From contig NZ_FNTD01000004.1 of NCBI RefSeq assembly GCF_900104815.1, positions 2,434,501 through 2,498,500 of the forward strand: DNA of 64,000 bases, read 5' to 3'. The DNA is from Streptomyces misionensis (GTDB lineage: Bacteria; Actinomycetota; Actinomycetes; Streptomycetales; Streptomycetaceae). Shown piece after piece: positions 43,337 through 60,632 of this stretch; positions within the stretch are counted from its first letter, which is position 1; the number at the start of each line of letters is the position of its first letter. The translations under genes and the position numbers were made by a program. A model generated the notes under the pieces. That model had not been told where the DNA came from. It saw nothing but the letters and a program-made list of their open reading frames with translations, and made no database searches.

Positions 43337-44746
43337 ATGTTCCAGAACGCCGACGAGGCCAAGAAGTTCATCGCGGACGAGGACGTCAAGTTCGTCGACG
43401 TCCGCTTCTGCGACCTGCCGGGCGTCATGCAGCACTTCACGGTGCCCGTCGAGGCGTTCGACCCGGACGAGGAGCTGGCCTTCGACGGATCGTCGATCCG
43501 CGGTTTCCAGGCCATCCACGAGTCGGACATGGCGCTGCGTGCCGACCTGTCCACGTCCCGTGTCGACCCGTTCCGCCGGGACAAGACGCTCAACATCAAC
43601 TTCTTCATCCACGACCCGATCACGGGCGAGCAGTACTCCCGTGACCCGCGCAACGTGGCCCGCAAGGCCGAGGCCTACCTCGCCTCCACCGGCATCGCGG
43701 ACACCGCGTTCTTCGGCCCCGAGGCCGAGTTCTACGTCTTCGACTCGGTGCGCTTCCAGACCAGCGCCAACGAGTCCTTCTACCACATCGACTCCGAGGC
43801 GGGCGCCTGGAACACCGGTGCGGTGGAGAACAACCGCGGCTACAAGGTCCGCTACAAGGGCGGCTACTTCCCAGTCGCGCCGGTGGACCACTTCGCGGAC
43901 CTGCGCGCGGAGATCTCCCTGGAGCTGGAGAAGTCCGGCCTGAAGGTGGAGCGCCAGCACCACGAGGTGGGCACGGCCGGCCAGGCGGAGATCAACTACA
44001 AGTTCAACACGCTGCTCGCCGCCGCCGACGACCTCCAGCTCTTCAAGTACATCGTGAAGAACGTCGCCTGGCGCAACGGCAAGACCGCGACCTTCATGCC
44101 GAAGCCGATCTTCGGTGACAACGGCTCGGGCATGCACGTCCACCAGTCGCTGTGGAGCAACGGCGACCCGCTGTTCTACGACGAGGCCGGCTACGCGGGC
44201 CTGTCGGACATGGCCCGCTACTACATCGGCGGCATCCTCAAGCACGCCCCGTCGCTGCTGGCCTTCACCAACCCGACGGTGAACTCCTACCACCGCCTGG
44301 TGCCGGGCTTCGAGGCGCCGATCAACCTGGTGTACTCGCAGCGCAACCGCTCCGCCGCGATGCGCATCCCGATCACCGGCTCCAACCCGAAGGCCAAGCG
44401 CGTCGAGTTCCGCGCGCCCGACTCCTCCGGCAACCCGTACCTGGCCTTCTCGGCCCTCCTCCTCGCGGGCCTGGACGGCATCAAGAACAAGATCGAGCCG
44501 GCCGAGCCGATCGACAAGGACCTCTACGAGCTGGCTCCCGAGGAGCACGCGAGCGTCGCCCAGGTCCCGACCTCCCTCGGCGCCGTCCTCGACGCGCTGG
44601 AGGCGGACCACGAGTTCCTGCTCCAGGGCGACGTCTTCACGTCCGACCTGATCGAGACCTGGATCGACCTCAAGCGCACCCAGGAGATCGCCCCGCTGGC
44701 CCTGCGCCCGCACCCGCACGAGTTCGAGCTGTACTTCGACGTGTGA
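43337..44746 (+). CDS. glnA: Glutamine synthetase type I
   Basis: The ATG at 43337 follows TAGGAGGAG and gives 469 residues. Signature motifs are [26 protein letters not shown], the ATP-binding [18 protein letters not shown], and the [16 protein letters not shown] region. The adenylylation tyrosine occurs in [14 protein letters not shown], so activity is likely to be switched by GlnE, as in the beta-type GSI of actinobacteria. A GlnR box lies in the promoter. The dodecameric enzyme makes glutamine from glutamate and ammonia. A type II enzyme is encoded at 59.6 kb. Confidence 0.98.
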
Positions 44747-47537: not shown

Positions 47538-48854
47538 TCACCGCCGCGGGGCCGACGACGCGTACGTCTTCTCGTCGGCCTCGACCGTGTCCGTGGGCGC
47601 ACCGTGGGCACGGATGCAGAGCGACAGCAGGGCGGCGCTCGCGCAGGCCGCGCCCAGGGCGAGCCAGACGGGGTCGTAGCTGCCGAACGTGTCACGGGCC
47701 ACGCCGCCGAGGAAGGAGGCCGACGCCGCGCCGACCTGGTGTGCCGCGTTGGTCCAGCCGAAGACGATGGCGCTGTCCTCGCCGTAGAAGGTCCGGCACA
47801 GGGCGATGACCGGCGGCACGGTCGCCAGGTCGAGCAGGCCGAAGGCGACCACGAAGACCATCATGGGCGGACTGACGGTGGCCGTCATGATCAGCGGCAG
47901 GCTGACCATGAGCAGGCCCCGCAGCAGGAAGTAGACGGCGAGGAGCCGGCGGGCGTCCCGGCGGTCGGTGAGCCAGCCGGAGAGGATGGTGCCGGCCACG
48001 TTGAAGACGCCGATGAACGCCAGCAGGGTCGAGGCCGTGGTGACGGGCATGCCGTGGTCGTGGGCCGCGGGGGCGAAGTGGGTCCACATGATGCCGTTGG
48101 TGGACGCTCCGCAGATGGCGAACGTAGCGGCGAGCAGCCAGAAGGGAACGGTTCGCGCGGCGCCGCACAGCACGGTCACGGTGCGGCGGGCGGCGCCGGG
48201 AACGGGGTCGGGTCGGGGGGTGAAGGTGTCGCTGCCGTAGGGGCGTCGTCCGATGTCGGCGGGGTGGTCGCGCAGCACGAGGTGGACCAGGGGGGTGACC
48301 GCGACGGCGGCGAGGGCGAGGGTGACGAGGGCGGGCCGCCAGTCGTAGTGGTCGATGGTCCAGGACAGTGCGGGCAGGAAGACCATCTGCCCCAGAACGC
48401 TGCCGGAGGAGAGGATGCCGGTCACCAGGCCGCGGCGGGCGGTGAACCAGCGGTTGGTGACGGTGGTGCCGAGGGTCATCGACAGTGATCCGGTCCCGAG
48501 GCCGACGAGGAAGCCCCAGAAGAGCGTGAACTGCCATGCGGCGCTCATCATCGTGGTGAGGACCGCTCCGGCGGCGACGGTCGCGAGCGCCGCGACGACG
48601 ACCCGGCGGATGCCGAACCGGTCCATCAGGGCGGCGGCATAGGGGGCCGTGAGTCCGTAGAGCAGCATGTTGACCGAGGCGGCCAGGCCGATGGAGCCGC
48701 GGGACCAGTGGAACTCCCCGCGCAGGGGGTCTTGCAGAATGCCCGGCATGGTGGAGAAGGCGCCCGCGACGACGATCGCCACTCCGGCGACGGCGGCCAC
48801 CCACCAGGCGCGGTGCCCGGCATCCTTCGTGTGTCGGCCGATCATGTCATCCAT
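47538..48854 (-). CDS. MFS transporter
   Basis: The 438-residue protein shows twelve hydrophobic segments in two halves, with the MFS inter-helix motif between helices 2 and 3 (MDRFGIRRVVVA) and a charged loop in mid-protein (RRPYGSDTFTPRPDPVPG). The ATG at 48854 has AGGA 7 nt upstream. It is related to monocarboxylate/oxalate-type MFS permeases by general pattern; the substrate is unknown. It is divergent from the GlxA-type regulator (71 bp), which may control it, and lies beyond ectA, so it could export the cluster product (inference). Confidence 0.88.
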   Translation of the reverse strand: MDDMIGRHTKDAGHRAWWVAAVAGVAIVVAGAFSTMPGILQDPLRGEFHWSRGSIGLAASVNMLLYGLTAPYAAALMDRFGIRRVVVAALATVAAGAVLTTMMSAAWQFTLFWGFLVGLGTGSLSMTLGTTVTNRWFTARRGLVTGILSSGSVLGQMVFLPALSWTIDHYDWRPALVTLALAAVAVTPLVHLVLRDHPADIGRRPYGSDTFTPRPDPVPGAARRTVTVLCGAARTVPFWLLAATFAICGASTNGIMWTHFAPAAHDHGMPVTTASTLLAFIGVFNVAGTILSGWLTDRRDARRLLAVYFLLRGLLMVSLPLIMTATVSPPMMVFVVAFGLLDLATVPPVIALCRTFYGEDSAIVFGWTNAAHQVGAASASFLGGVARDTFGSYDPVWLALGAACASAALLSLCIRAHGAPTDTVEADEKTYASSAPRR

Positions 48855-48925: not shown

Positions 48926-49909
48926 ATGACGGTGGGTGATGAGTCTCCGCACAGGGTGGCGGTTCTGGTGCGGTCCGGTCTCCTGCCCATGGAGCTGGGG
49001 ATCGTGCACCGCCTGTTCGGGACCGCGACGGATGCGGCCGGCCGGCCGCTGTACTCGGTCGTGACGTGTGCCGTGGAACCGGGTGAGGTGCGCACGGACG
49101 CCGACTTCACGGTCAACGTGCCGCTGGGACCGCAGGCGCTGCGCGACGCGGACACGGTGATCGTGCCCGCCGCGATCGAGGACTACCGCCCGCAGCGGCG
49201 TGGCGAGTTGAGCCCGCTGGTGCGGGCGGCGCTCGCGGAGATCCCCCCGACAGCGCGTCTGGCCTCCATCTGCACCGGGTCGTTCGTGCTGGCGGCAGCG
49301 GGCCTGCTCACGGGCCGGCGGGCGACCACGCACTGGAAGTCCTGTCCCGAACTGGCCGCCCTCTACCCGGAGATCGACGTGGACCCCGACGTGCTGTACA
49401 CCGATGACCAGGGTGTGCTCACGTCCGCGGGTGTGGCCGCGGGGATCGATCTGTGCCTGCACATGATCCGCAGTGACCACGGCGCCGACGTCGCCAACAC
49501 CGTCGCCCGCGGCACGGTGGTGCCGCCGCACCGCGAGGGCGGCCAGGCCCAGTACATCGACCGTCCCGTGCCCGAACCCGGCGACACTTCCACCGCCGCC
49601 GCCCGCGCCTGGGCCCTGGAACACCTCGGTGAGGGCCTCACCCTGGAGGACCTGGCGCGCCGGTCGGCGACGAGCGTGCGGACGTTGACGCGCAAGTTCC
49701 GGCAGGAGACGGGGCTGCCACCGATGCAGTGGCTCGCCCAGCAGCGTCTGCAGTACGCCCGGCGGCTGCTGGAACGCACGGACGAGCCGGTGGACCGGAT
49801 CGCGGCCGAAGCCGGCTTCGGCACGGGCACGGCGATGCGTCAGCACTTCCGGGAGGCGCTGGGCGTGTCACCGCGCGCGTACCGCAACACCTTCCGCGGG
49901 GAAGCGTGA
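48926..49909 (+). CDS. GlxA-type AraC-family regulator with DJ-1/PfpI domain
   Basis: The ATG gives 327 residues. The N-terminal DJ-1/PfpI-like domain (about 8-175; SICTGSFVLAAAGLL with the nucleophile-elbow Cys) acts as a sensor. Two AraC-type HTH motifs form the C-terminus (about 225-325; LTLEDLARRSATSVRTLTRKF and DRIAAEAGFGTGTAMRQHF). It is divergent from the MFS gene, so it probably regulates that gene and itself. An irregular inverted sequence around 48893-48912 may be the operator. Confidence 0.92.
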   Translation: MTVGDESPHRVAVLVRSGLLPMELGIVHRLFGTATDAAGRPLYSVVTCAVEPGEVRTDADFTVNVPLGPQALRDADTVIVPAAIEDYRPQRRGELSPLVRAALAEIPPTARLASICTGSFVLAAAGLLTGRRATTHWKSCPELAALYPEIDVDPDVLYTDDQGVLTSAGVAAGIDLCLHMIRSDHGADVANTVARGTVVPPHREGGQAQYIDRPVPEPGDTSTAAARAWALEHLGEGLTLEDLARRSATSVRTLTRKFRQETGLPPMQWLAQQRLQYARRLLERTDEPVDRIAAEAGFGTGTAMRQHFREALGVSPRAYRNTFRGEA

Positions 49910-49954
49910 GGGCACGGGCGCGGTGACACCGCCTCGGCGGAACCGCGTGCCGGC

Positions 49955-50482
49955 TCAGCCGGGAACCGGTTCGATGGGGCCGATCCGGTAGAGCACCTCG
50001 TCGTGGTGTGCCTCGGGGAAGAGGGAGGCCGGGAACAGCACTTCGGTGTGCACGGGGGCCCGGTACCGCTTGGCGCACTTCTTCAGCACCATGATGATGG
50101 CCTTGTTGTCGGCCGACACGGTCGCCTCGATGTAGCGCGCGCCCTGGGCGACCGCGCGCTCGGCCGCCCGCTCGAAGAGCTGCACCCCGAGCATCGGGAT
50201 GCCGTGCCGGGGCTTGGCGGCCTCCTGCCAGACCAGATAGGTGTCGGGCTGCTCGGGGCGGAAGTAGCCGGTCAGCATGCCGACGATCTCGTCGCCGAGG
50301 GATGCCACGAGAGAGGTCTCGGCGAAGTCGCGGCACCACAGGGCGTAGTAGTACGGGCTGTTGTCGTCGAGTTCGTCGGACTCGTGCACCATCTGCCACA
50401 TGGCCTGGGCGTCCTCGGCACGCGGCGGGCGGTACTCGGGGCGGACTCGGGTCGCGGTGGCGTCGGACACCGGCGCGGTCAT
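49955..50482 (-). CDS. ectA: L-2,4-diaminobutyrate acetyltransferase (EctA-like)
   Basis: The 175-residue GNAT protein matches EctA over its length: [34 protein letters not shown] and [11 protein letters not shown]. EctA acetylates diaminobutyrate on the gamma amino group with acetyl-CoA. The pyrophosphate loop, usually RGxGLG or similar, reads [14 protein letters not shown] here, so the acyl donor or substrate may differ. The ATG overlaps the ectC stop by 4 nt. It is the last gene of a seven-gene minus-strand operon. Confidence 0.88.
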
Positions 50483-50883
50483 GCGGTGGCCTCCTCGGTG
50501 AGCAGCGGGTAGACGCCGTTCTCGTCGTGGTCCTCGCGGCCGGTGACCGGCGGGTTGAACACGCAGACGAAACGGGAGTCCACCTTCGGGCGCAGCGTGT
50601 GCTTCTCGTGCCCGTCCAGCAGGTACATGGTGCCGGGTGTGATCAGGTGCTTCTCGCCGGTCTCCTCATTGGTGAGTTCGGTCTCGCCCTCGACGCACAG
50701 AACGGCCTCGATGTGGTTGGCGTACCACATGGTCGTCTCGGTGCCGGCGTAGACGGTCGTCTCGTGCAGGGAGAAGCCGACTCCCTCGCGAGCGAGGACG
50801 ATCCGCTTGCTCTCCCATGTGCCGGAGCGGGACTTGACGTGCCTGTCGGTGCCTTCGACGTCCTGGAACGAGCGGACGATCAT
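50479..50883 (-). CDS. ectC: L-ectoine synthase (EctC)
   Basis: This 134-residue cupin closes N-gamma-acetyl-diaminobutyrate to ectoine. EctC motifs are complete: [54 protein letters not shown] (metal-binding Glu) and [14 protein letters not shown] (Tyr and His ligands), then [19 protein letters not shown]. The enzyme is therefore expected to be active. Its stop overlaps the ectA start by 4 nt, and the ACP gene lies 105 bp upstream. Normal ectoine operons are ectABC(D) in order; here the order is ACP-ectC-ectA with ectB divergent. Confidence 0.94.
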
Positions 50884-50988
50884 GTGCGGCTTTCCTTTCT
50901 CGAATCGGCCTCGTGCCTGACGTCCCGTGCGGCTTCAGGGGACGCGAGGGCGCGGCCACCGGTGTGAGAGGTCGGTGGGGTGGGTTGT

Positions 50989-51258
50989 TCAGGCCGCGCT
51001 GCGGGTCTCGAGCTGGGTGATGGCGAAGTCGGTGAACGTGTCGACCGTCTCGAAGTCGTCGGCTTCGAGTTCCTCGGGGTCGACCTCGAGGCCGAGGGAG
51101 TCCTCCAGTTCCATCAGCATCTCCAGCATCGTGGTCGAGTCCAGGTGGAGATCGTCGAAGAGCCTGGTCTGTCCGGAGAGCCCGGTCACCGGCCTCTCCA
51201 GCACGCTGCTCAGCGCGGTCTCCATGGCGGCGGTCACGTCGGTGCGCTTGAGGGTCAT
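50989..51258 (-). CDS. Free-standing acyl carrier protein
   Basis: The 89-residue acidic protein has the phosphopantetheine attachment serine in DDLHLDSTTMLEMLMELED (Ser41) and a helical ACP fold. The extended N-terminus (MTLKRTDVTAAMETALSSV) and an acidic second half (EELEADDFETVDTFTDF) distinguish it from the fatty-acid ACP. An AcpS-type phosphopantetheinyl transferase is encoded two genes upstream in the operon, and an AMP-forming ligase immediately upstream, so it probably carries an activated acid or amino acid. Confidence 0.93.
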   Translation of the reverse strand: MTLKRTDVTAAMETALSSVLERPVTGLSGQTRLFDDLHLDSTTMLEMLMELEDSLGLEVDPEELEADDFETVDTFTDFAITQLETRSAA

Positions 51259-51272
51259 CGTGCGTGCTCCTT

Positions 51273-52778
51273 TCACAGGTGTGCGGGGTCCTGAACGAGA
51301 TCGGTCAGGGCCTGTCGGTCGACTTTGCCGTTGTTGTTGGTGGGCAGTCCGGGCACCGGGACGCAGCGGCGGGGGATCTTGTAGTCCTCGATCAGGCCGT
51401 GCATCCGGGCCAGCACGTCGGAACCCTCCAACTCGGTCACCGCGGCCAGGACCGCGGTCTTCCCGGTCCTGGGGCCGGGGGGCAGCACGGCCGCGGAGGT
51501 CACGCCTTCGACGCGGCGGGCGGCGGCCTCCACCTCGGTGGCGCTGACGCGGAAACCGCGTTCCTTGTAGAGGTCGTCGCGGCGGCCGGAGAAGTAGAGG
51601 TAGCCGTCGTCGTCCATCCAGCCGTAGTCGCCGGTCCGCAGTTCCGGGAAGAGGCCGTCCCGCCGGTGGAAGCGCTCGGCGGTCAGCTCCGGACGGCGCC
51701 AGTAGCCGGCCATGACGTGCGGGCCGCGGACGACGAACTGGCCGACCTCTCCGGCGGGCAGCCGCTCGCCGTCGTCGTCGACGGTGAAGACCTCCGTGCC
51801 GGGTAGCGCCCGTCCGGACGCGCCGGGCCGCAGGAGGTCTCCGTCCGGGGGCATGATCGTGGCCCGCTTGCATTCGGTGAGTCCGTACATCAGCTGCACG
51901 GACAGGCCGGGTATCGCCTCGCGCAGGTCGGCGATGGTCCGGTCGGACAGGGCCGCCCCCGTGTTGGTCAGAAGACGCAGCTTGGGCTTGTTCTTCGCCC
52001 GCCGCACCAGCCAGGCCAGGCGGTCGGAGACGGAGGGAACCGCAGCGAGCACGGTCGCCTCGCTCTCCTGGAGGGCGCGCAGCAGCGGCGGTCCGGCCTC
52101 CGCGACGTCGCCCACGCGCAACTGGGCACCGGCCAGGAAAGTCAGGAACAGCTGGTAGAGGCCGTAGTCGAAGGACAGCGGCAGGGGGCTGAAGACGATG
52201 TCGTCCGCGCGGTAGCCCAGACAGTCCTGGATGGCGCGTGCGGCGAAGAGCATCTGCTGGTGGGTGCTGACGACGGCCTTGGGCAGCGACGTGGTGCCCG
52301 AGGTGTAGATCAGGCATGCCCCGTCGACCCCGAGCGGAGCGGGCATCGTCTGCCCGTCGGCATCCGGCCCCGGCTCCGGGGCGTGGCGCAACTCCCTGGA
52401 GGAGATGACGCGTACGCCATGTGCCTGCGCGGTGGTGGACACACCGGGGTCGTCTGTCACGATCGCGGTCGGCTCGCAGTCGCCCAGGACGTGTTCGAGC
52501 GGGCGGTCCCGAACGTCTTGGTGCAGGACGCTGAACATCGCACCCGCGCGGGAGGCGGCGTGCACGGCGACCGCGACGGCGATGGCGTCGGGCGAGGAGA
52601 CGACGACTCGGTCACCGCGGCGAACACCGCACGCCCGCAGCAGGTGCGCGGCTCGGCGGGAGGCGAGCGCCAACTCTCCGTAGGAGATGGCGTCCGACCC
52701 GGTGCTCAGGACACACCGGTCACTGTGCACGGCGGCGGCGTCGTCGAGCAGGGAATGGAGGGTGAGCGGCTGGGTCAC
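51273..52778 (-). CDS. AMP-forming acyl/amino-acid ligase
   Basis: The GTG start overlaps the hotdog gene by 4 nt. The 501-residue ANL enzyme has all core motifs: YTSGTTSLPKAVVSTH (P-loop), LMYGLTECKRATIMPP (A5), TGDYGWMDDDGYLYFSGRRDD (A7-A8) and the terminal lysine in NNNGKVDRQAL. The stretch LPLSFDYGLYQLFLTF is like the ligase associated with exosortase-A clusters, which loads a substrate onto a dedicated ACP. Here the ACP gene follows directly, so the enzyme probably adenylates a small acid or amino acid and transfers it to that ACP. Substrate unknown. Confidence 0.92.
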   Translation of the reverse strand: MTQPLTLHSLLDDAAAVHSDRCVLSTGSDAISYGELALASRRAAHLLRACGVRRGDRVVVSSPDAIAVAVAVHAASRAGAMFSVLHQDVRDRPLEHVLGDCEPTAIVTDDPGVSTTAQAHGVRVISSRELRHAPEPGPDADGQTMPAPLGVDGACLIYTSGTTSLPKAVVSTHQQMLFAARAIQDCLGYRADDIVFSPLPLSFDYGLYQLFLTFLAGAQLRVGDVAEAGPPLLRALQESEATVLAAVPSVSDRLAWLVRRAKNKPKLRLLTNTGAALSDRTIADLREAIPGLSVQLMYGLTECKRATIMPPDGDLLRPGASGRALPGTEVFTVDDDGERLPAGEVGQFVVRGPHVMAGYWRRPELTAERFHRRDGLFPELRTGDYGWMDDDGYLYFSGRRDDLYKERGFRVSATEVEAAARRVEGVTSAAVLPPGPRTGKTAVLAAVTELEGSDVLARMHGLIEDYKIPRRCVPVPGLPTNNNGKVDRQALTDLVQDPAHL

Positions 52779-53257
52779 TGGCGTCCTCCCATCGGTACGG
52801 CTTCCTTCTCGCCGGGGCTCCGGACGCTGTCGGACGATCCGGTGCGCTTCGGCTTGGGAACGACGGTCACCGCGTTCGCCGTGCAGACGACGACCGGTTC
52901 GGCGAGCACCTGTGCCGCGCTGGTGCTCGTGTCGTGGGAGGCGATGACCTTCCGGGCCTCCAGTGCGACGAAGCGGCGCAGTCTGGTGCTGCGGGTGAGC
53001 CTGGCGGTGGCCTCGATGTAGTCGCCAGGGCGGACGGGTGCCGTGAAGCGGACGTCGGAGTACGCGGAGAGCAGTCCCTCGTCGCCGTCGGTGCGGATGG
53101 TGATCTCGGTGACGAGGTCGCCGAAGAGGCGCAGCAGCCTTGCGCCGTCGACGAGTTCACCTGCGTAGTGGGCCTCTTCCTGACCGATTCTGACGCGCAG
53201 CCGCGCTGTGACGTGCGCGTCGCCGTCGGCGGAGCCTTCAGCGATAGTCATGGGCAT
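52775..53257 (-). CDS. Hotdog-fold protein resembling 3-aminobutyryl-CoA ammonia-lyase
   Basis: The 160-residue protein begins at ATG 53257. From memory it matches the ammonia-lyase (Kal) family of lysine fermentation: HYAGELVDGARLLRLFGDL, TEITIRTDGDEGLLSAY, then TAPVRPGDYIEATARL and a late hotdog strand PVVVCTANAVTVVPK. Kal removes or adds ammonia at the beta carbon of 3-aminobutyryl-CoA. In this operon it may aminate an enoyl-ACP or deaminate a beta-amino acid on the carrier. The tail (about 30 residues) is extra. No thioesterase motif is evident. Confidence 0.78.
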   Translation of the reverse strand: MPMTIAEGSADGDAHVTARLRVRIGQEEAHYAGELVDGARLLRLFGDLVTEITIRTDGDEGLLSAYSDVRFTAPVRPGDYIEATARLTRSTRLRRFVALEARKVIASHDTSTSAAQVLAEPVVVCTANAVTVVPKPKRTGSSDSVRSPGEKEAVPMGGRQ

Positions 53258-53314
53258 GTCATCCCTTCTTCCGTTGCCGTGGGAGGCTGACGAGCGTGCT
53301 GACGGGCGCGTCCC

Positions 53315-53701
53315 TCATTCGGGCTGCACGAGCAGAGCCGCGGCGGCGACCACGGTCTTCTTGTGCGTGATCGAGACACGCACGGTCCGCCGCGACGCGA
53401 CCCGGGCGGCCTCCCCACGCAGTTCGACGCGCGGGGACCCGTCCGCGGCGCGTTCGACGCGGATGTTCCGAGGTGCGATCCCCTGCAGCAGACCCCTGCC
53501 CAGCGCCTTGAGGACGGCCTCCTTGGCGGCGAAGCGGCCGGCCAGGTACTCCAGGCGCCTGACGCCTTGGAGAGCCCGTGCCTGCTCGATCTCCTCCGGC
53601 GCGTAGCAGTAGCGCAGGAACCAGCCGCGCGTCACGAGCCTCTTCAGTTCGTCGCGGTCGAGAACGTCCAGACCGACGCCTACGGGCCGCCCGGATGTCA
53701 C
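53315..53701 (-). CDS. Holo-ACP synthase (AcpS-type phosphopantetheinyl transferase)
   Basis: The GTG at 53701 overlaps the upstream decarboxylase stop by 4 nt, giving 128 residues. The AcpS motifs are VGVGLDVLDRDELKRL (metal-binding Asp) and LAGRFAAKEAVLKALG (Glu-Lys). It transfers phosphopantetheine from CoA to the serine of an ACP. Having its own transferase beside the ACP suggests that the pathway carries its own carrier activation and does not rely on the fatty-acid AcpS. It is distinct in sequence from Sfp-type enzymes. Confidence 0.9.
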   Translation of the reverse strand: MTSGRPVGVGLDVLDRDELKRLVTRGWFLRYCYAPEEIEQARALQGVRRLEYLAGRFAAKEAVLKALGRGLLQGIAPRNIRVERAADGSPRVELRGEAARVASRRTVRVSITHKKTVVAAAALLVQPE

Positions 53702-54984
53702 GAGGCGTCCTTGAAGACCGCCAGCCGCTGCCGGGACAGCAGTTCCTCGGGCGTGTCCCGCTCCCGCACCAGGGTCACCTGTCCGTCGTGCACGAAGACT
53801 TCCGCGGGGTAGCCGTGACCGAGGAACAGCCCGGGCGAGGCGGTGGGGCCGTAGGCGCCGGACCGCTCGATGCCGAGCAGGTCGCCGGGCCGGACTTCGG
53901 GAAGCCTGACCTTCTTCACGAGCGTGTCGTTCGGGGTGCACAGCGGTCCGGTGACGGTGTAGGTGCCGGTGGGCTCGGCCGAGGGGCTGCCCAGGTGGAC
54001 GACGGGGAAGTTCCGTTTCACGAAACTCCCGATGCCCACTGCGGCCATATGGTGATTGGTGCCGCCGTCCGCCACGACGAACAACTCCCCCATCGACTCC
54101 TTCACATAGACGGCCCGTGTCACATAGATACCGGCGTCGGCCGCGAGGAACCGGCCCAGCTCCATGATGATCCGGCAGGACGGGTGCCGGGCACGGAATT
54201 CGCCCACCGGACCCCGCATACCTTTGCCGAGTTCGGCGGTGTCGAGGTCCGACTCGTTCTCGAAGTAGGCCACACCCAGACCGCCCCCGAAATCCACGAA
54301 GGAAAGGTCTACACCCAGCTCCGTGGCGAGGTCTTCCGCCATCCGGAGAATGCTCTCCGTGTTCGCGACGACGTCCCGGTGATCGAGAAAACGGGTACCC
54401 ATATAGGCATGGAAACCCTTCACCTCGACGTGCCTCAAGGCGTCGAGCAAGGGCCGCGCCTGACGGACTTCCTTCTCGTCCACACCGAATTGCCGCGGCT
54501 TTCCTCCCATCGACAGCCCGGACCCCTTGCTGTGGAAGCTCGGGTTGACCCGCAGCACCGCGGGGAACGGGGCGGCCCCCCGCGCGGCCGCGACCTCGTC
54601 CAGGAGCCGGAGTTCCGCGAGCGACTCGCAGACCACGGCGGAGATGCCGGCCGAGACACACGCCTCGAGGTCGGCCCGGCTCTTTCCCGGCCCGAGGAAG
54701 ATGATGTCCGCCGGGTCCACCCCGGCCCGCATGGCGGTCATCAGTTCCGTCAGCGACGACACTTCCGCGCCTGCGCCCTGGGCTCCGAGAAAGCCGCACA
54801 CGCTGATGTTCGGATTCGCTTTCAGGGAATAGAGGACTTCCACTCCGTCCGGCAGCGCTTCCGCAAGCCTCCGATACGTTTCGCTGAGAACTTGCGCGTC
54901 GTAGATGAATAGAGGTGTTCCGAACTCGTCCACGATGTCTTCGACAGGAAGGCCCTGGATGTGCGCCTTCGGATTTTCGGGCAA
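53698..54984 (-). CDS. PLP-dependent decarboxylase, BtrK/exosortase-A-associated type
   Basis: The TTG at 54984 is favoured over the GTG at 54990 because the ribosome binding site GGAGG is 7 nt from it and only about 1 nt from the GTG. The product has 428 residues and is an alanine-racemase-fold (type III) decarboxylase. PLP lysine is in YSLKANPN (Lys55). The second active-site loop is TGPLCTPNDTL with the catalytic Cys, as in BtrK and the exosortase-A-linked decarboxylase, not CESGD as in diaminopimelate decarboxylase. BtrK decarboxylates glutamyl groups on an ACP. The neighbouring ligase and ACP suggest a similar carrier-bound substrate. Confidence 0.88.
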   Translation of the reverse strand: MPENPKAHIQGLPVEDIVDEFGTPLFIYDAQVLSETYRRLAEALPDGVEVLYSLKANPNISVCGFLGAQGAGAEVSSLTELMTAMRAGVDPADIIFLGPGKSRADLEACVSAGISAVVCESLAELRLLDEVAAARGAAPFPAVLRVNPSFHSKGSGLSMGGKPRQFGVDEKEVRQARPLLDALRHVEVKGFHAYMGTRFLDHRDVVANTESILRMAEDLATELGVDLSFVDFGGGLGVAYFENESDLDTAELGKGMRGPVGEFRARHPSCRIIMELGRFLAADAGIYVTRAVYVKESMGELFVVADGGTNHHMAAVGIGSFVKRNFPVVHLGSPSAEPTGTYTVTGPLCTPNDTLVKKVRLPEVRPGDLLGIERSGAYGPTASPGLFLGHGYPAEVFVHDGQVTLVRERDTPEELLSRQRLAVFKDAS

Positions 54985-55529
54985 GTGCACCCCTCCCGCT
55001 GTCTCGGCTTGCTGTTCCCAAAACCGTAGGGGAGGAGCCGAGCGGCGTCATATCGCGCACCGGGGAATCCGGCCAACTTGGGACGGCGTGCGATGGATGA
55101 AGGGCGGCCGTGTATCCCCGAGGTTCCCGACGTCATGCGCCATCGACCGACAGTTGTGACCCACGCCACACGGCAACTATCCATCTTCGTAACTAAAGGT
55201 TCATAAAGGGCTATACAGACATACAGTGACAATCGCACGGCAGGCCGGGCTGCAGCGTGGCCAGAAGTCATCGAAGCCCAGGAGGACTCACCGCCGAACA
55301 GGCATACGGGTGTGAGGTCTGAGGCATGGGCAGCGCAAGGGGGCCAAGCGGATACGCGGTATCGGACCGCGGTGATTCCAGACGGCTCGCGGGGCAGCCA
55401 CCGGCCGGCTCCTGGCCCTCACGCACCGACTCCCGGCCGCACGGCCCCGGTCTCCCGTCCGGCGCATCCGCTGGTCTCACCACCGGTCCGCCGAATCAGT
55501 CCTGACGTCACTGCCGTTGAGGAGTAGGC
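54985..55529. promoter_or_regulatory. Bidirectional promoter region between the ect operon and ectB
   Basis: This gap is AT-rich in its middle (about 55170-55240), unlike the rest of the window. It has TATACA and TACAGT -10-like boxes and a direct repeat of ATACAG at 55213-55218 and 55221-55226, 8 bp apart. It is the only place for the promoters of both the seven-gene operon and ectB, and could hold an osmotic or regulator-responsive site. No gene was supported here. Confidence 0.6.
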
Positions 55530-56801
55530 ATGACCATCACCCAACCGGACCTGAGCACCTTCGAGAGCCTGGAGTCCGAGGTGCGCAGCTACTGCCGTGG
55601 CTGGCCCACCGTGTTCGACCGCGCGCAGGGCAGCCGGCTGTACGACGAGGACGGCCATGCGTACCTCGACTTCTTCGCCGGTGCCGGATCACTCAACTAC
55701 GGCCACAACAACCCGGTGCTCAAACGGGCGCTGATCGACTACCTGTCCCGGGACGGGATCACCCACGGCCTGGACATGTCGACCACGGCCAAACGCTCGT
55801 TCCTGCAGACCTTCCAGGACCTGGTGCTGCGCCCGCGCGATCTGCCGTACAAGGTCATGTTCCCCGGCCCGACCGGCACCAACGCCGTCGAGTCGGCACT
55901 GAAGCTGGCCCGCAAGGTCAAGGGCCGCGAGGCCATCGTGTCCTTCACCAACGCCTTCCACGGCATGTCCCTGGGCTCGCTCGCCGTGACCGGCAACGCC
56001 TTCAAGCGGGCCGGCGCCGGCGTCCCCCTGGTGCACGGCACCCCGATGCCGTTCGACAACTACTTCGACGGCACCGTCCCCGACTTCCTGTGGTTCGAGC
56101 GGCTCCTGGAGGACCAGGGCTCCGGCCTGAACAAACCCGCCGCGGTGATCGTGGAGACCGTGCAGGGCGAGGGCGGCATCAACGTCGCCCGCCCCGAGTG
56201 GCTGCGCGCCCTCAAGGAACTGTGCGAACGGCAGGACATGCTGCTGATCGTCGACGACATCCAGATGGGCTGCGGCCGCACCGGCGCCTTCTTCTCCTTC
56301 GAGGAGTCCGGCATCACCCCCGACATCGTCACCGTCTCCAAGTCGATCAGCGGCTACGGACTGCCGATGTCCCTGTGCCTGTTCCGGCCCGAACTCGACG
56401 TCTGGGAGCCCGGCGAACACAACGGCACCTTCCGCGGCAACAACCCCGCGTTCGTCACCGCCACCGCGGCCCTGGAGACCTACTGGACCGATCCTCATAT
56501 CACCCGCCAGACGGCCTTACTCGGCCGACAGGTGGAGCAGTCCCTCCTGGCGATCTGCGACGAACACCGCGCCGCCGGTGCCCGCTACCGGGGCCGCGGC
56601 CTGGTGTGGGGCCTCGAGTTCCACAACAAGAGGCGCGCCGGGCTGATCGCGCGACGCGCCTTCGAACTCGGCCTGCTCGTCGAGACGTCCGGCCCTGACA
56701 ACGAGGTCGTCAAGCTGCTCCCGGCCCTCACGATCCCCCCTGAGGAACTGGACGAAGGACTCGGCACGCTGGCCCGCGCCGCCCGGGAGGTCGCGGACTA
56801 G
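55530..56801 (+). CDS. ectB: Diaminobutyrate-2-oxoglutarate aminotransferase (EctB)
   Basis: The ATG at 55530 follows TTGAGGAG and gives 423 residues, the normal EctB length. EctB makes L-2,4-diaminobutyrate from aspartate semialdehyde using glutamate. Key features are LDFFAGAGSLNYGHNNP, the IVDDIQMGCGRTGAFFSFE loop, and the PLP lysine in TVSKSISGYGLPMS. It is divergent from the operon carrying ectC and ectA, so all three ectoine enzymes are present in the cluster but in two transcription units. No aspartokinase or ectD (hydroxylase) is in the window. Confidence 0.95.
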   Translation: MTITQPDLSTFESLESEVRSYCRGWPTVFDRAQGSRLYDEDGHAYLDFFAGAGSLNYGHNNPVLKRALIDYLSRDGITHGLDMSTTAKRSFLQTFQDLVLRPRDLPYKVMFPGPTGTNAVESALKLARKVKGREAIVSFTNAFHGMSLGSLAVTGNAFKRAGAGVPLVHGTPMPFDNYFDGTVPDFLWFERLLEDQGSGLNKPAAVIVETVQGEGGINVARPEWLRALKELCERQDMLLIVDDIQMGCGRTGAFFSFEESGITPDIVTVSKSISGYGLPMSLCLFRPELDVWEPGEHNGTFRGNNPAFVTATAALETYWTDPHITRQTALLGRQVEQSLLAICDEHRAAGARYRGRGLVWGLEFHNKRRAGLIARRAFELGLLVETSGPDNEVVKLLPALTIPPEELDEGLGTLARAAREVAD

Positions 56802-59470: not shown

Positions 59471-59508
59471 GTAACACGGGGTTCACACAAGGGCAATGGC
59501 CGGGAAAC
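59471..59508 (+). promoter_or_regulatory. GlnR-like box upstream of glnII
   Basis: Four 5-mers with 6-bp spacers read GTAAC, TTCAC, GCAAT and GAAAC (59471, 59482, 59493, 59504). The first and last match the GlnR consensus fully, the middle two only in part. A TTGACA -35-like element lies just downstream (59515-59520). The assignment is tentative but its position before glnII fits. Confidence 0.65.
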
Positions 59509-59600
59509 GGCCTGTTGACAGTCTCCGGGCAGATCGAGGCGGCGCCGTCGCGCCGCAGCGCCCGCGAGTGCGCCCGAACCACCCGAAGGAAGTGCCCCCC

Positions 59601-60632
59601 GTGACCTTCAAGGCCGAGTACATCTGGATCGACGGCACCGCGCCGACGGCCAAGCTCCGTTCCAAGACGAAGATCATCACGGGTGCCCCGGCCGGTCTCG
59701 ACGCGCTGCCGCTGTGGGGCTTCGACGGGTCGTCCACCAACCAGGCCGAGGGCCACGCCTCGGACCGCGTGCTCAAGCCGGTCTTCAGCTGCCCGGACCC
59801 GATCCGCGGCGGCGACGACATCCTGGTGCTGTGCGAGGTCCTGAACACGGACATGACCCCGCACGCCTCCAACACCCGCGCCGAACTGGCCGAGGTCGCC
59901 GAGCGGTTCGCCGCGCAGGAGCCGATCTTCGGCATCGAGCAGGAGTACACCTTCTTCGCCGGCACCCGCCCGCTGGGCTTCCCCGAGGGCGGCTTCCCGG
60001 CCCCGCAGGGCGGCTACTACTGCGGTGTCGGCGCCGACGAGATCTTCGGCCGGGACGTCGTCGAGGCGCACCTCGACAACTGCCTGAAGGCCGGTCTCGG
60101 CATCTCCGGCATCAACGCCGAGGTCATGCCGGGCCAGTGGGAGTTCCAGGTCGGCCCGCTCGCCCCGCTGGAGGTCTCCGACCAGCTGTGGGTGGCCCGC
60201 TGGCTGCTCTACCGCACCGCCGAGGACTTCAAGGTCTCCGCCACCCTCGACCCCAAGCCGGTCAAGGGCGACTGGAACGGCGCGGGCGCGCACACCAACT
60301 TCTCCACCAAGGCGATGCGCGAGGGCTACGACGCGATCATCACCGCCTGCGAGTCGCTGGGCGAGGGTTCCAAGCCGCTGGACCACGTCAAGAACTACGG
60401 CGCCGGCATCGACGAGCGCCTGACCGGTCTGCACGAGACCGCCCCCTGGGACAAGTACACCTACGGCGTCTCCGACCGCGGCGCCTCGGTCCGCATCCCG
60501 TGGCAGGTCGAGCAGGAGGGCAAGGGCTACATCGAGGACCGCCGCCCGAACGCCAACGTCGACCCCTACGTGGTGACCCGCCTGCTGGTGGACACCTGCT
60601 GCTCGGCGCTGGAGAAGGCCGGCCAGGTCTGA
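59601..60632 (+). CDS. glnII: Glutamine synthetase type II (eukaryote-like)
   Basis: The GTG at 59601 follows GAAGGAAG and gives 343 residues, the GSII length. Motifs are LWGFDGSSTNQAEG, FGIEQEYTFFAG, AEVMPGQWEFQVGP, and the ATP/substrate region KGDWNGAGAHTNFSTKAMRE, followed by RIPWQVEQEGKGYIEDRRPNAN. The octameric-type GSII lacks the adenylylation tyrosine, so it is regulated by transcription, in line with the GlnR-like box. It complements GSI (glnA, 43 kb) under nitrogen limitation. Confidence 0.97.
   Translation: MTFKAEYIWIDGTAPTAKLRSKTKIITGAPAGLDALPLWGFDGSSTNQAEGHASDRVLKPVFSCPDPIRGGDDILVLCEVLNTDMTPHASNTRAELAEVAERFAAQEPIFGIEQEYTFFAGTRPLGFPEGGFPAPQGGYYCGVGADEIFGRDVVEAHLDNCLKAGLGISGINAEVMPGQWEFQVGPLAPLEVSDQLWVARWLLYRTAEDFKVSATLDPKPVKGDWNGAGAHTNFSTKAMREGYDAIITACESLGEGSKPLDHVKNYGAGIDERLTGLHETAPWDKYTYGVSDRGASVRIPWQVEQEGKGYIEDRRPNANVDPYVVTRLLVDTCCSALEKAGQV

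Follow-up and report, generated by a model that had tools for sequence, protein, structure and literature searches.

Why would a Streptomyces genome that already holds a complete set of ectoine genes carry a second one among genes for activating an amino acid on an acyl carrier protein (ACP)? We examined this question in Streptomyces misionensis, using a 64,000-nt stretch (C4:2434501-2498500) of its 8.47 Mb genome, hereafter the window, whose numbering is used below unless another locus is named. A first-pass annotation had described seven minus-strand genes (DEC, AcpS, KAL, LIG, ACP, ectC and ectA) divergent from ectB. This eight-gene layout was borne out, and families were assigned to the operon genes with hidden Markov models (HMMs):

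53698..54990, minus strand: DEC, a fold-III pyridoxal phosphate (PLP) decarboxylase of the BtrK type, predicted to decarboxylate beta-aspartyl-ACP
53315..53701, minus strand: AcpS-type phosphopantetheinyl transferase (PPTase), for ACP (PF01648, 57.8 bits; TIGR00556, 70.1, cut-off 45.35)
52775..53257, minus strand: KAL, a hotdog-fold homologue of beta-aminoacyl thioester ammonia lyases, predicted to make acryloyl-ACP
51273..52778, minus strand: LIG, a VinN-type adenylating enzyme, predicted to load the beta-carboxyl of aspartate onto ACP
50989..51258, minus strand: ACP, free-standing (PP-binding domain PF00550, 31.1 bits, cut-off 20.8)
50479..50883, minus strand: ectC, ectoine synthase (cyclase) (NF009806, 189.3 bits, cut-off 128)
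49955..50482, minus strand: ectA variant, a diaminobutyrate acyltransferase with its donor loop altered at residues 91-100
55530..56801, plus strand: ectB, diaminobutyrate transaminase, second copy (TIGR02407, 658.8 bits, cut-off 552.2)

The three 4-nt stop/start overlaps proposed for this operon are likewise present, at DEC/AcpS (GTGA, 53698-53701), KAL/LIG (GTGA, 52775-52778) and ectC/ectA (ATGA, 50479-50482), and the remaining gaps, computed from the coordinates, are 57 nt (AcpS-KAL), 14 nt (LIG-ACP), 105 nt (ACP-ectC) and 539 nt (DEC-ectB). Among the operon genes, the family models recognised no polyketide synthase (PKS) or second ligase and no further acyltransferase, and a scan of 49900-55600 for sigma-70 promoters and terminators, which is uninformative for Streptomyces, found nothing. 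The first-pass annotation had left to be checked whether a canonical set exists elsewhere in the genome. It does: ectA-ectB-ectC lie at about 2.140-2.143 Mb on the same contig (L042 8054-10242), whose EctA, EctB and EctC share 44%, 91% and 78% identity with their window counterparts, and the adjoining EctD-like gene product is 52% identical to the EctD-like protein of locus L027. Given this separate ectABC and EctD-like gene, the window operon is probably dispensable for ectoine synthesis.

We propose, with about an even chance of being right, that the operon makes a C2-modified ectoine by means of an EctA fed with acyl-ACP, 2-vinyl ectoine being our best guess. The evidence begins with gene linkage. 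We scanned GTDB contigs with a query alignment of the altered EctA type and two peptide patterns, one of them from the altered loop, and retained the 80 best of the 133 stretches that were confirmed. Altered-type EctA occurs in 29 of these (L080-L108) and ordinary EctA in 49 (L111-L159, mostly Actinomadura), with the remaining two, L109 and L110, having loops of neither type; because the scan patterns included the altered-loop peptide, the counts of 29 and 49 should not be read as frequencies in populations. The five-gene module DEC-AcpS-KAL-LIG-ACP accompanies the altered ectA in 25 of the 29 contigs, and order and direction are identical in all 25. The other four are a cluster with truncated ectC and transposase-like pieces (L084), one in which LIG is only about 258 residues long (L092), a 3.9 kb contig (L093) and one reaching a contig end (L104). 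At E 1e-5, none of the five module genes was found in the 49 ordinary-loop contigs, of which 38 extend 7 kb or more to either side of ectA and 11 have less than 7 kb upstream. The co-occurrence of ect genes with the ligase, ACP, decarboxylase and KAL set, which the first-pass annotation had named as a check on its proposal, is thus found in 25 of 29 altered-EctA contigs and 0 of 49 ordinary ones, and the constant order and direction in all 25 show that the association is not due to chance. We regard the linkage as firm.

A sample of 392 Streptomyces genomes, which overlaps the contig scan in species so that the counts cannot be added, gave a similar picture. A KAL homologue (E 1e-10) was present in 20 genomes, and we inspected about 20 kb around the 19 loci other than the window; the gene lists of some compared neighbourhoods, here and below, are heuristic. 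In seven loci, namely L023-L028 and L033, the last rich in frameshifts, DEC-AcpS-KAL-LIG lie together with ect genes; four (L029-L032) have the module with no ect genes within about 10 kb, and eight (L034-L041) hold only a more distant KAL in a different setting. EctA matches (E 1e-10) occurred in 363 of the 392 genomes, among which no KAL homologue was seen beside an ordinary EctA. Loops were inspected in the 30 best EctA loci, and the altered loop was found in nine genomes, eight with the module and one, G232, with a remnant beside transposase-like genes. EctC was present in all 17 selected genomes, and each of the nine with altered EctA has a second, separate EctC. In the contig scan the nearest EctA was that of S. 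misionensis L080 (97%), and the relatives recovered in the searches were from Streptomyces.

The second line of evidence is EctA itself. GNAT enzymes bind acetyl-CoA through a loop of the form R/Q-x-x-G-x-A; no such loop was found in the window EctA, which is without the R-G-x-x-L-A donor loop. All 29 contigs of the altered type instead carry P-[RC]-H-G-[IV]-P-x-L-G-V, as against R-G-x-x-[LM]-A in all 49 ordinary contigs. On the diaminobutyrate side, the altered EctAs largely retain the acceptor motif LDxNS.Y.Y.LW.RD. The helix at residues 127-139 has a net charge of +4 to +5 in 29 of 29 altered EctAs, compared with means of -0.2 and +1.7 in sets of 49 and 17 ordinary ones, and the net charge of ACP is -16. 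Searching about 5.8 billion protein sequences returned 59 EctA relatives at E 1e-20, with a strict PRHG match in 48; six of the other 11 (P0132, P0133, P0136, P0137, P0164, seen in part, and P0167) look like near-variants. Together with the linkage in 25 contigs and its absence from 49, this donor-loop change supports the original proposal of a modified osmolyte or new product in which diaminobutyrate is joined to an acid provided by the ACP module.

An EctA tree of 75 rows, built from 116 loci and the window after removal of four rows containing stops, of duplicates and of all but 12 Actinomadura-range rows, separated an altered clade (36 rows) from the rest (39 rows) with support of 100/98. 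The PRHGIP-type rows were not recovered as monophyletic, since two changes are needed and L110 and L078, which also have other loops, fall among them at an open fork. Loop labels on the tree came from a narrow regular expression, which called 11 ordinary-side rows "other" although most are actually RG..(V/L/T)A; the truly different loops on that side are those of L054/L076 and L070, along with PAHRAPGLAT in L055/L077, which was labelled canonical. At the level of sequence, the split of EctA into altered and ordinary types is firm.

The pathway that we favour goes beyond the first-pass annotation in specifying the acid as an acryloyl group from aspartate, transferred by EctA to diaminobutyrate before closure by EctC. 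AcpS would activate the small ACP, and LIG would adenylate the beta-carboxyl of L-aspartate and load it onto the carrier, where DEC would remove the alpha-carboxyl to leave beta-alanyl-ACP. KAL would then eliminate ammonia to give acryloyl-ACP. With L-2,4-diaminobutyrate provided by EctB, the altered EctA would move the acyl group from ACP, rather than acetyl from acetyl-CoA, onto the gamma-amine, and ring closure by EctC would yield 2-vinyl-1,4,5,6-tetrahydropyrimidine-4-carboxylate ("vinylectoine"), an amidine that is both unsaturated and electrophilic. Every chemical step, the acyl identity and the product are things we infer from sequence, and within this scheme we consider acyl transfer by the altered EctA likely and 2-vinyl ectoine our leading candidate for the product. 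What the comparisons show directly is which genes are present and in what order, that the module goes with altered EctA, and which proteins each enzyme most resembles.

Those closest relatives point to the acyl group. For LIG the best match in the PDB is VinN (3wvn, 341 bits), followed by gramicidin synthase at 223. D204 is kept in all 25 covered LIG homologues, T273 and K304 in 25 of 26, the exception being the frameshifted L108, and R305 in 26 of 26; this Asp and the Lys-Arg pair align with the substrate residues D230, K330 and R331 of VinN, whose S299 is a Thr in LIG. Matches to 5jjq (123 bits) and 5jjp (112 bits), which we take to be IdnL1- and CmiS6-type chains, were too weak beside VinN for LIG to be read as a loader of aliphatic beta-amino acids. 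DEC is closest to BtrK (7ru7 and 2j66, 269 bits), and its motifs SLKAN and GPLCTPND are each kept in 24 of 24 covered homologues; the next match, LysA, reaches 180 bits, and action on free diaminobutyrate or diaminopimelate was rejected on this difference. The exosortase-A ligase and decarboxylase models, although the first to match LIG and DEC, were rejected as well, the scores lying below cut-off (TIGR03098, 299.1 against 592.35; TIGR03099, 361.6 against 478.45). The sole PDB match of KAL below E 1e-10 is beta-alanyl-CoA:ammonia lyase (4mtu, 61.5 bits). Of 26 residues shared with 4mtu, 20 are conserved throughout the covered homologues or missing from just one of them, and H30, L35, R40, G58, D68 and T72 vary more. 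An AcpS domain is also carried by five of 120 listed KAL relatives (P0031, P0033, P0036, P0044, P0079), fusions which fit KAL acting on a carrier protein, and the phosphopantetheine serine of ACP lies within HLDST, found in 26 of 26 homologues.

In the vicenistatin pathway, as sections of PMC11284099 describe it, VinN loads 3-methylaspartate on the ACP VinL, on which VinO then decarboxylates it, and the substrate of the related FlvN is aspartate. Beta-alanyl-CoA:ammonia lyase, according to a passage in PMC4619459, strips ammonia from a beta-amino thioester. The closest relatives of LIG, DEC and KAL therefore line up in a coherent route from aspartate through beta-aspartyl-ACP and beta-alanyl-ACP to acryloyl-ACP, and an acryloyl group on ACP is likely.

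For ring closure, residues W23, S25, R27, T42, Y54, E59, Y87, H95, C107 and F109 are all present in the window EctC, and nothing in the active-site residues checked hinted at a changed pocket. Their P. lautus EctC counterparts include Tyr-85 and His-93, and the others match residues given in part of PMC6344544. Excerpts of that paper and of PMC5924519 report that the H. elongata enzyme hydrolyses synthetic analogues of other ring sizes and cyclises glutamine as a side reaction. Differences from the mostly Actinomadura EctCs mix phylogeny with function. We consider closure by EctC likely in the window operon and uncertain in a subgroup of clusters with a P450-like gene, where EctC is more diverged, with S and H replacing H40 and Y87. 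The gene for the diaminobutyrate supply, ectB, lies inside the operon in 14 of 25 contigs; in S. caelestis (L083) it is divergent, as in the window, and cut by the contig end.

Several observations weigh against this pathway. The window EctA passes the NCBI EctA equivalog model (139.3 against a cut-off of 120.6; the canonical copy scores 198.5), so acetyl-CoA may still be its donor; of the four altered copies scored, three pass (window, L088 and L109) and L110 fails. The basic helix is not clear-cut in EctAs from the CmlS-type clusters described below, where its charge is +1 to +3, overlapping ordinary Streptomyces EctA. KAL falls under the NF052388 family cut-off (147.8 against 160) and could be a thioesterase. 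A glutamate mutase elsewhere in the window's genome makes 3-methylaspartate and methacryloyl possible. The ordinary contigs are mostly Actinomadura, so that loop and module differ by lineage too, and the Streptomyces control for their pairing, from the 392 genomes, is indirect. Finally, H. elongata EctC is described in a portion of PMC5924519 as highly specific for N-gamma-acetyl-diaminobutyrate, and ectC was not found in the available DNA of three of the 25 contigs (L087, L097, L105), so ring closure may not be general.

Four alternatives were weighed. The first keeps the acyl-ACP route and changes the cargo to methacryloyl, from 3-methylaspartate, or to beta-alanyl, with KAL acting later or in the role of a thioesterase; the product would then be 2-isopropenyl- or 2-aminoethyl-ectoine. 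We think it unlikely, though it deserves to be kept in mind: VinN prefers 3-methylaspartate (in the relevant part of PMC11284099), KAL scores below its family cut-off, and glutamate mutase was found in genomes G000, G288, G220 and G374. A 3-methylaspartate start needs this enzyme, however, and no PF06368 match was found in five of the eight other altered-EctA genomes (four with intact clusters and the remnant G232), the window operon holds no recognisable mutase gene, and KAL keeps most of the residues it shares with beta-alanyl-CoA:ammonia lyase, as counted above.

The second alternative leaves EctA an acetyltransferase, with the acid on ACP going on to acylate or alkylate the ectoine, or else has KAL add an amine to acryloyl-ACP, yielding N-carboxyethyl-diaminobutyrate. 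Hotdog enzymes can run as Michael-adding enzymes, and amine addition of this kind occurs in the isonitrile lipopeptide pathway; EctA and EctC also score above their family cut-offs. We nevertheless judge this improbable, because it explains neither the donor-loop change (29 of 29 in the linked type, 0 of 49 in the ordinary) nor why a genome with a complete canonical set should have a further, dedicated EctA, and the operon shows no other recognisable acyltransferase.

Slightly more improbable still, in our estimation, is that EctA transfers the acyl group and the product is an open-chain N-acyl-diaminobutyrate or a later oxidised form of it, with EctC active in some clusters only. The three contigs without a detected ectC all have a P450-like gene, and the diverged EctC of the P450-type clusters agrees with such an outcome there; in the window EctC, by contrast, every active-site residue checked is intact, and ectC and ectA share a 4-nt overlap. 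That module and ect genes are chance neighbours acting separately is scarcely credible, for although four of the 392 Streptomyces genomes have the module beside ketosynthase III (KSIII)-like genes and no ect within about 10 kb, the comparative data contradict it: the module is present in 25 of 29 contigs of one type and 0 of 49 of the other, its order and direction never vary, and some of its genes overlap.

Those four ect-less loci (L029-L032) inform on the module itself. The adjoining KSIII-like genes form one sequence family, whose L030 member was confirmed by Pfam, and L029 and L030 show modular-PKS-like proteins by eye, with members of the same sequence family also present in L031 and L032. 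In this setting DEC-AcpS-KAL-LIG-ACP looks like a portable acyl-ACP supply, which may provide an acryloyl starter unit for polyketides.

The strongest support for a donor switch by EctA comes from a second, independent pairing. Sister EctAs from Actinopolyspora biskrensis (L109) and two Streptomyces (L074, L075) share the loop KPG[NS]G[IV]SGLG and fall in the supported half of the tree that holds the window type. In all three loci the gene adjoins those for an ACP-like protein, a short-chain dehydrogenase/reductase (SDR), an AMP ligase, a CmlS orthologue and a PPTase:

L109 10001-16087: chloramphenicol-type gene set with altered EctA
L074 3948-10144: chloramphenicol-type gene set with altered EctA
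L075 4235-10393: chloramphenicol-type gene set with altered EctA

The L109 CmlS scores 1052.4 bits with NF033113 (cut-off 900) and 904 bits against CmlS 3i3l; the L074 and L075 copies are 85-86% identical to it, NF033113 having been applied to the L109 copy only. The ACP-like protein, which has no Pfam match at E 0.01, is named from its size, its place and the parallel with cmlM. An EctC is encoded about 9 kb away in L074 and L075, and an EctB in L109. In the chloramphenicol cluster, as set out in part of PMC4249514, the likely dichloroacetylation genes are cmlM (ACP), cmlJ (SDR), cmlK (AMP ligase), cmlS and cmlT, with a PPTase in cmlL, and that 2014 paper calls the dichloroacetylation roles obscure. 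The sister clusters thus resemble cmlM, cmlJ, cmlK, cmlS and cmlL and differ in having an altered EctA in place of chloramphenicol genes; the set is absent from the window operon. Here an altered EctA again stands beside a probably carrier-borne, non-acetyl group, and the predicted product is 2-dichloromethyl ectoine. The pairing supports ACP-fed EctA as a wider theme. It is conceivable, and we put it forward tentatively, that a whole EctA clade switched from acetyl-CoA to carrier-bound donors and was paired with different acyl modules (acryloyl here, CmlS-type dichloroacetyl there), making electrophilic C2-modified ectoines that might enter competitors through ectoine uptake as reactive decoys.

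Two further EctA settings were observed. In L076 (4336-11108) and L077 (8906-15851), an EctA-like gene with a further loop lies beside a gene for a VinN-like ligase 51-55% identical to LIG, with a more distant decarboxylase (35%) and, by eye, ACP-like and enoyl-CoA hydratase-like genes; the hydratase-like protein might replace KAL. In Streptomyces albidoflavus (L110 2754-10477), an EctA-like gene with a different loop is found near genes for EctB, an ATP-grasp protein and, by eye, an amino-acid N-hydroxylase-like protein, a neighbourhood that may encode an unrecognised diaminobutyrate-derived pathway.

Set against known systems, the window operon agrees with ectoine EctABC(D) in its family-model assignments of EctA, EctB and EctC, the EctA diaminobutyrate motif and the EctC active site, but differs in the replaced donor loop and in the ACP, AcpS, ligase, decarboxylase and ammonia-lyase homologue, which ectoine does not need. 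With VinN-VinO-VinL and FlvN (vicenistatin and fluvirucin starters) it shares a VinN-type ligase, an ACP and, as we infer, decarboxylation on the carrier, DEC being likened to VinO from its BtrK similarity among solved structures and not from the VinO sequence. An ammonia-lyase homologue and EctA follow here, unlike the aminoacyl protection, acyltransferase and modular PKS of those pathways, and no VinM or VinK partner or modular PKS was found among the operon genes. BtrK (butirosin, L-glutamyl-[BtrI ACP] decarboxylase) is the closest solved relative of DEC and shares GPLCTPxD with it, whereas the expected substrate of DEC is beta-aspartyl-ACP and the context holds no gamma-aminobutyrate (GABA) or butirosin genes. 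KAL belongs with beta-alanyl-CoA:ammonia lyase and 3-aminobutyryl-CoA ammonia lyase (Kal) in hotdog family and shared residues, yet it is tied to an ACP and natural-product genes and not to fermentation, and scores below the Kal cut-off.

In the open-licence PubMed Central (PMC) literature we found no published study of the DEC-AcpS-KAL-LIG-ACP-ect gene set and no paper joining ectoine, acryloyl and acyl carrier protein. Ectoine is usually treated as a uniform osmolyte, and the NCBI model calls three of the four altered EctAs scored ordinary diaminobutyrate acetyltransferases; if they use carrier-bound acyl groups, a set of actinomycete clusters is being mistaken for second ectoine operons when the real products are unknown reactive amidines. 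In the sister clusters, chloramphenicol dichloroacetyl genes are paired with a small, assayable acceptor enzyme, and an ammonia lyase acting on a carrier protein would, if true, give cells a simple way to make a tethered acryloyl group.

Two genes next to the operon recur with it:

47538..48854, minus strand: major facilitator superfamily (MFS) transporter, possible product exporter (Pfam MFS_1, 174 bits)
48926..49909, plus strand: DJ-1/AraC-type regulator, FtrA-like (Pfam DJ-1_PfpI and HTH_18; FtrA, 327.5 bits, below the cut-off of 425)

The MFS protein, which may export vinylectoine, has a homologue in 14 of 25 module-bearing contigs, in 13 of them within 4 kb of ectA, compared with one of 49 ordinary contigs. 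For the AraC-type gene, 13 of the 25 module-bearing contigs have a homologue less than 4 kb from ectA; none of the 49 ordinary contigs does, though 29 of them have one farther off. Nine of the 25 add an ectoine hydroxylase homologue (the L027 copy scores 394.8 with TIGR02408, cut-off 336.5), and the P450-like gene, in 10 of 25, comes with ferredoxin-like, reductase-like and flavodoxin-fold proteins, identified by eye, with the flavodoxin fold confirmed.

The window operon sits between two glutamine-synthetase-like genes (43337-44746 and 59496-60632; glnA- and glnII-like by eye), flanks which suggest that it is probably an insertion in the core chromosome. Three decayed clusters keep only the ectA end (L073 8216-9615; L084 8979-9727; L092 8476-9285), and two of them adjoin transposase-like genes, by eye. 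The many frameshifts across the cluster in L033/L108 (CP042279.1), from a genome that is 55% complete, are probably sequencing error and not decay. The cluster also occurs in Streptomyces turgidiscabies (L100), S. stelliscabiei (L091) and S. caniscabiei (L103).

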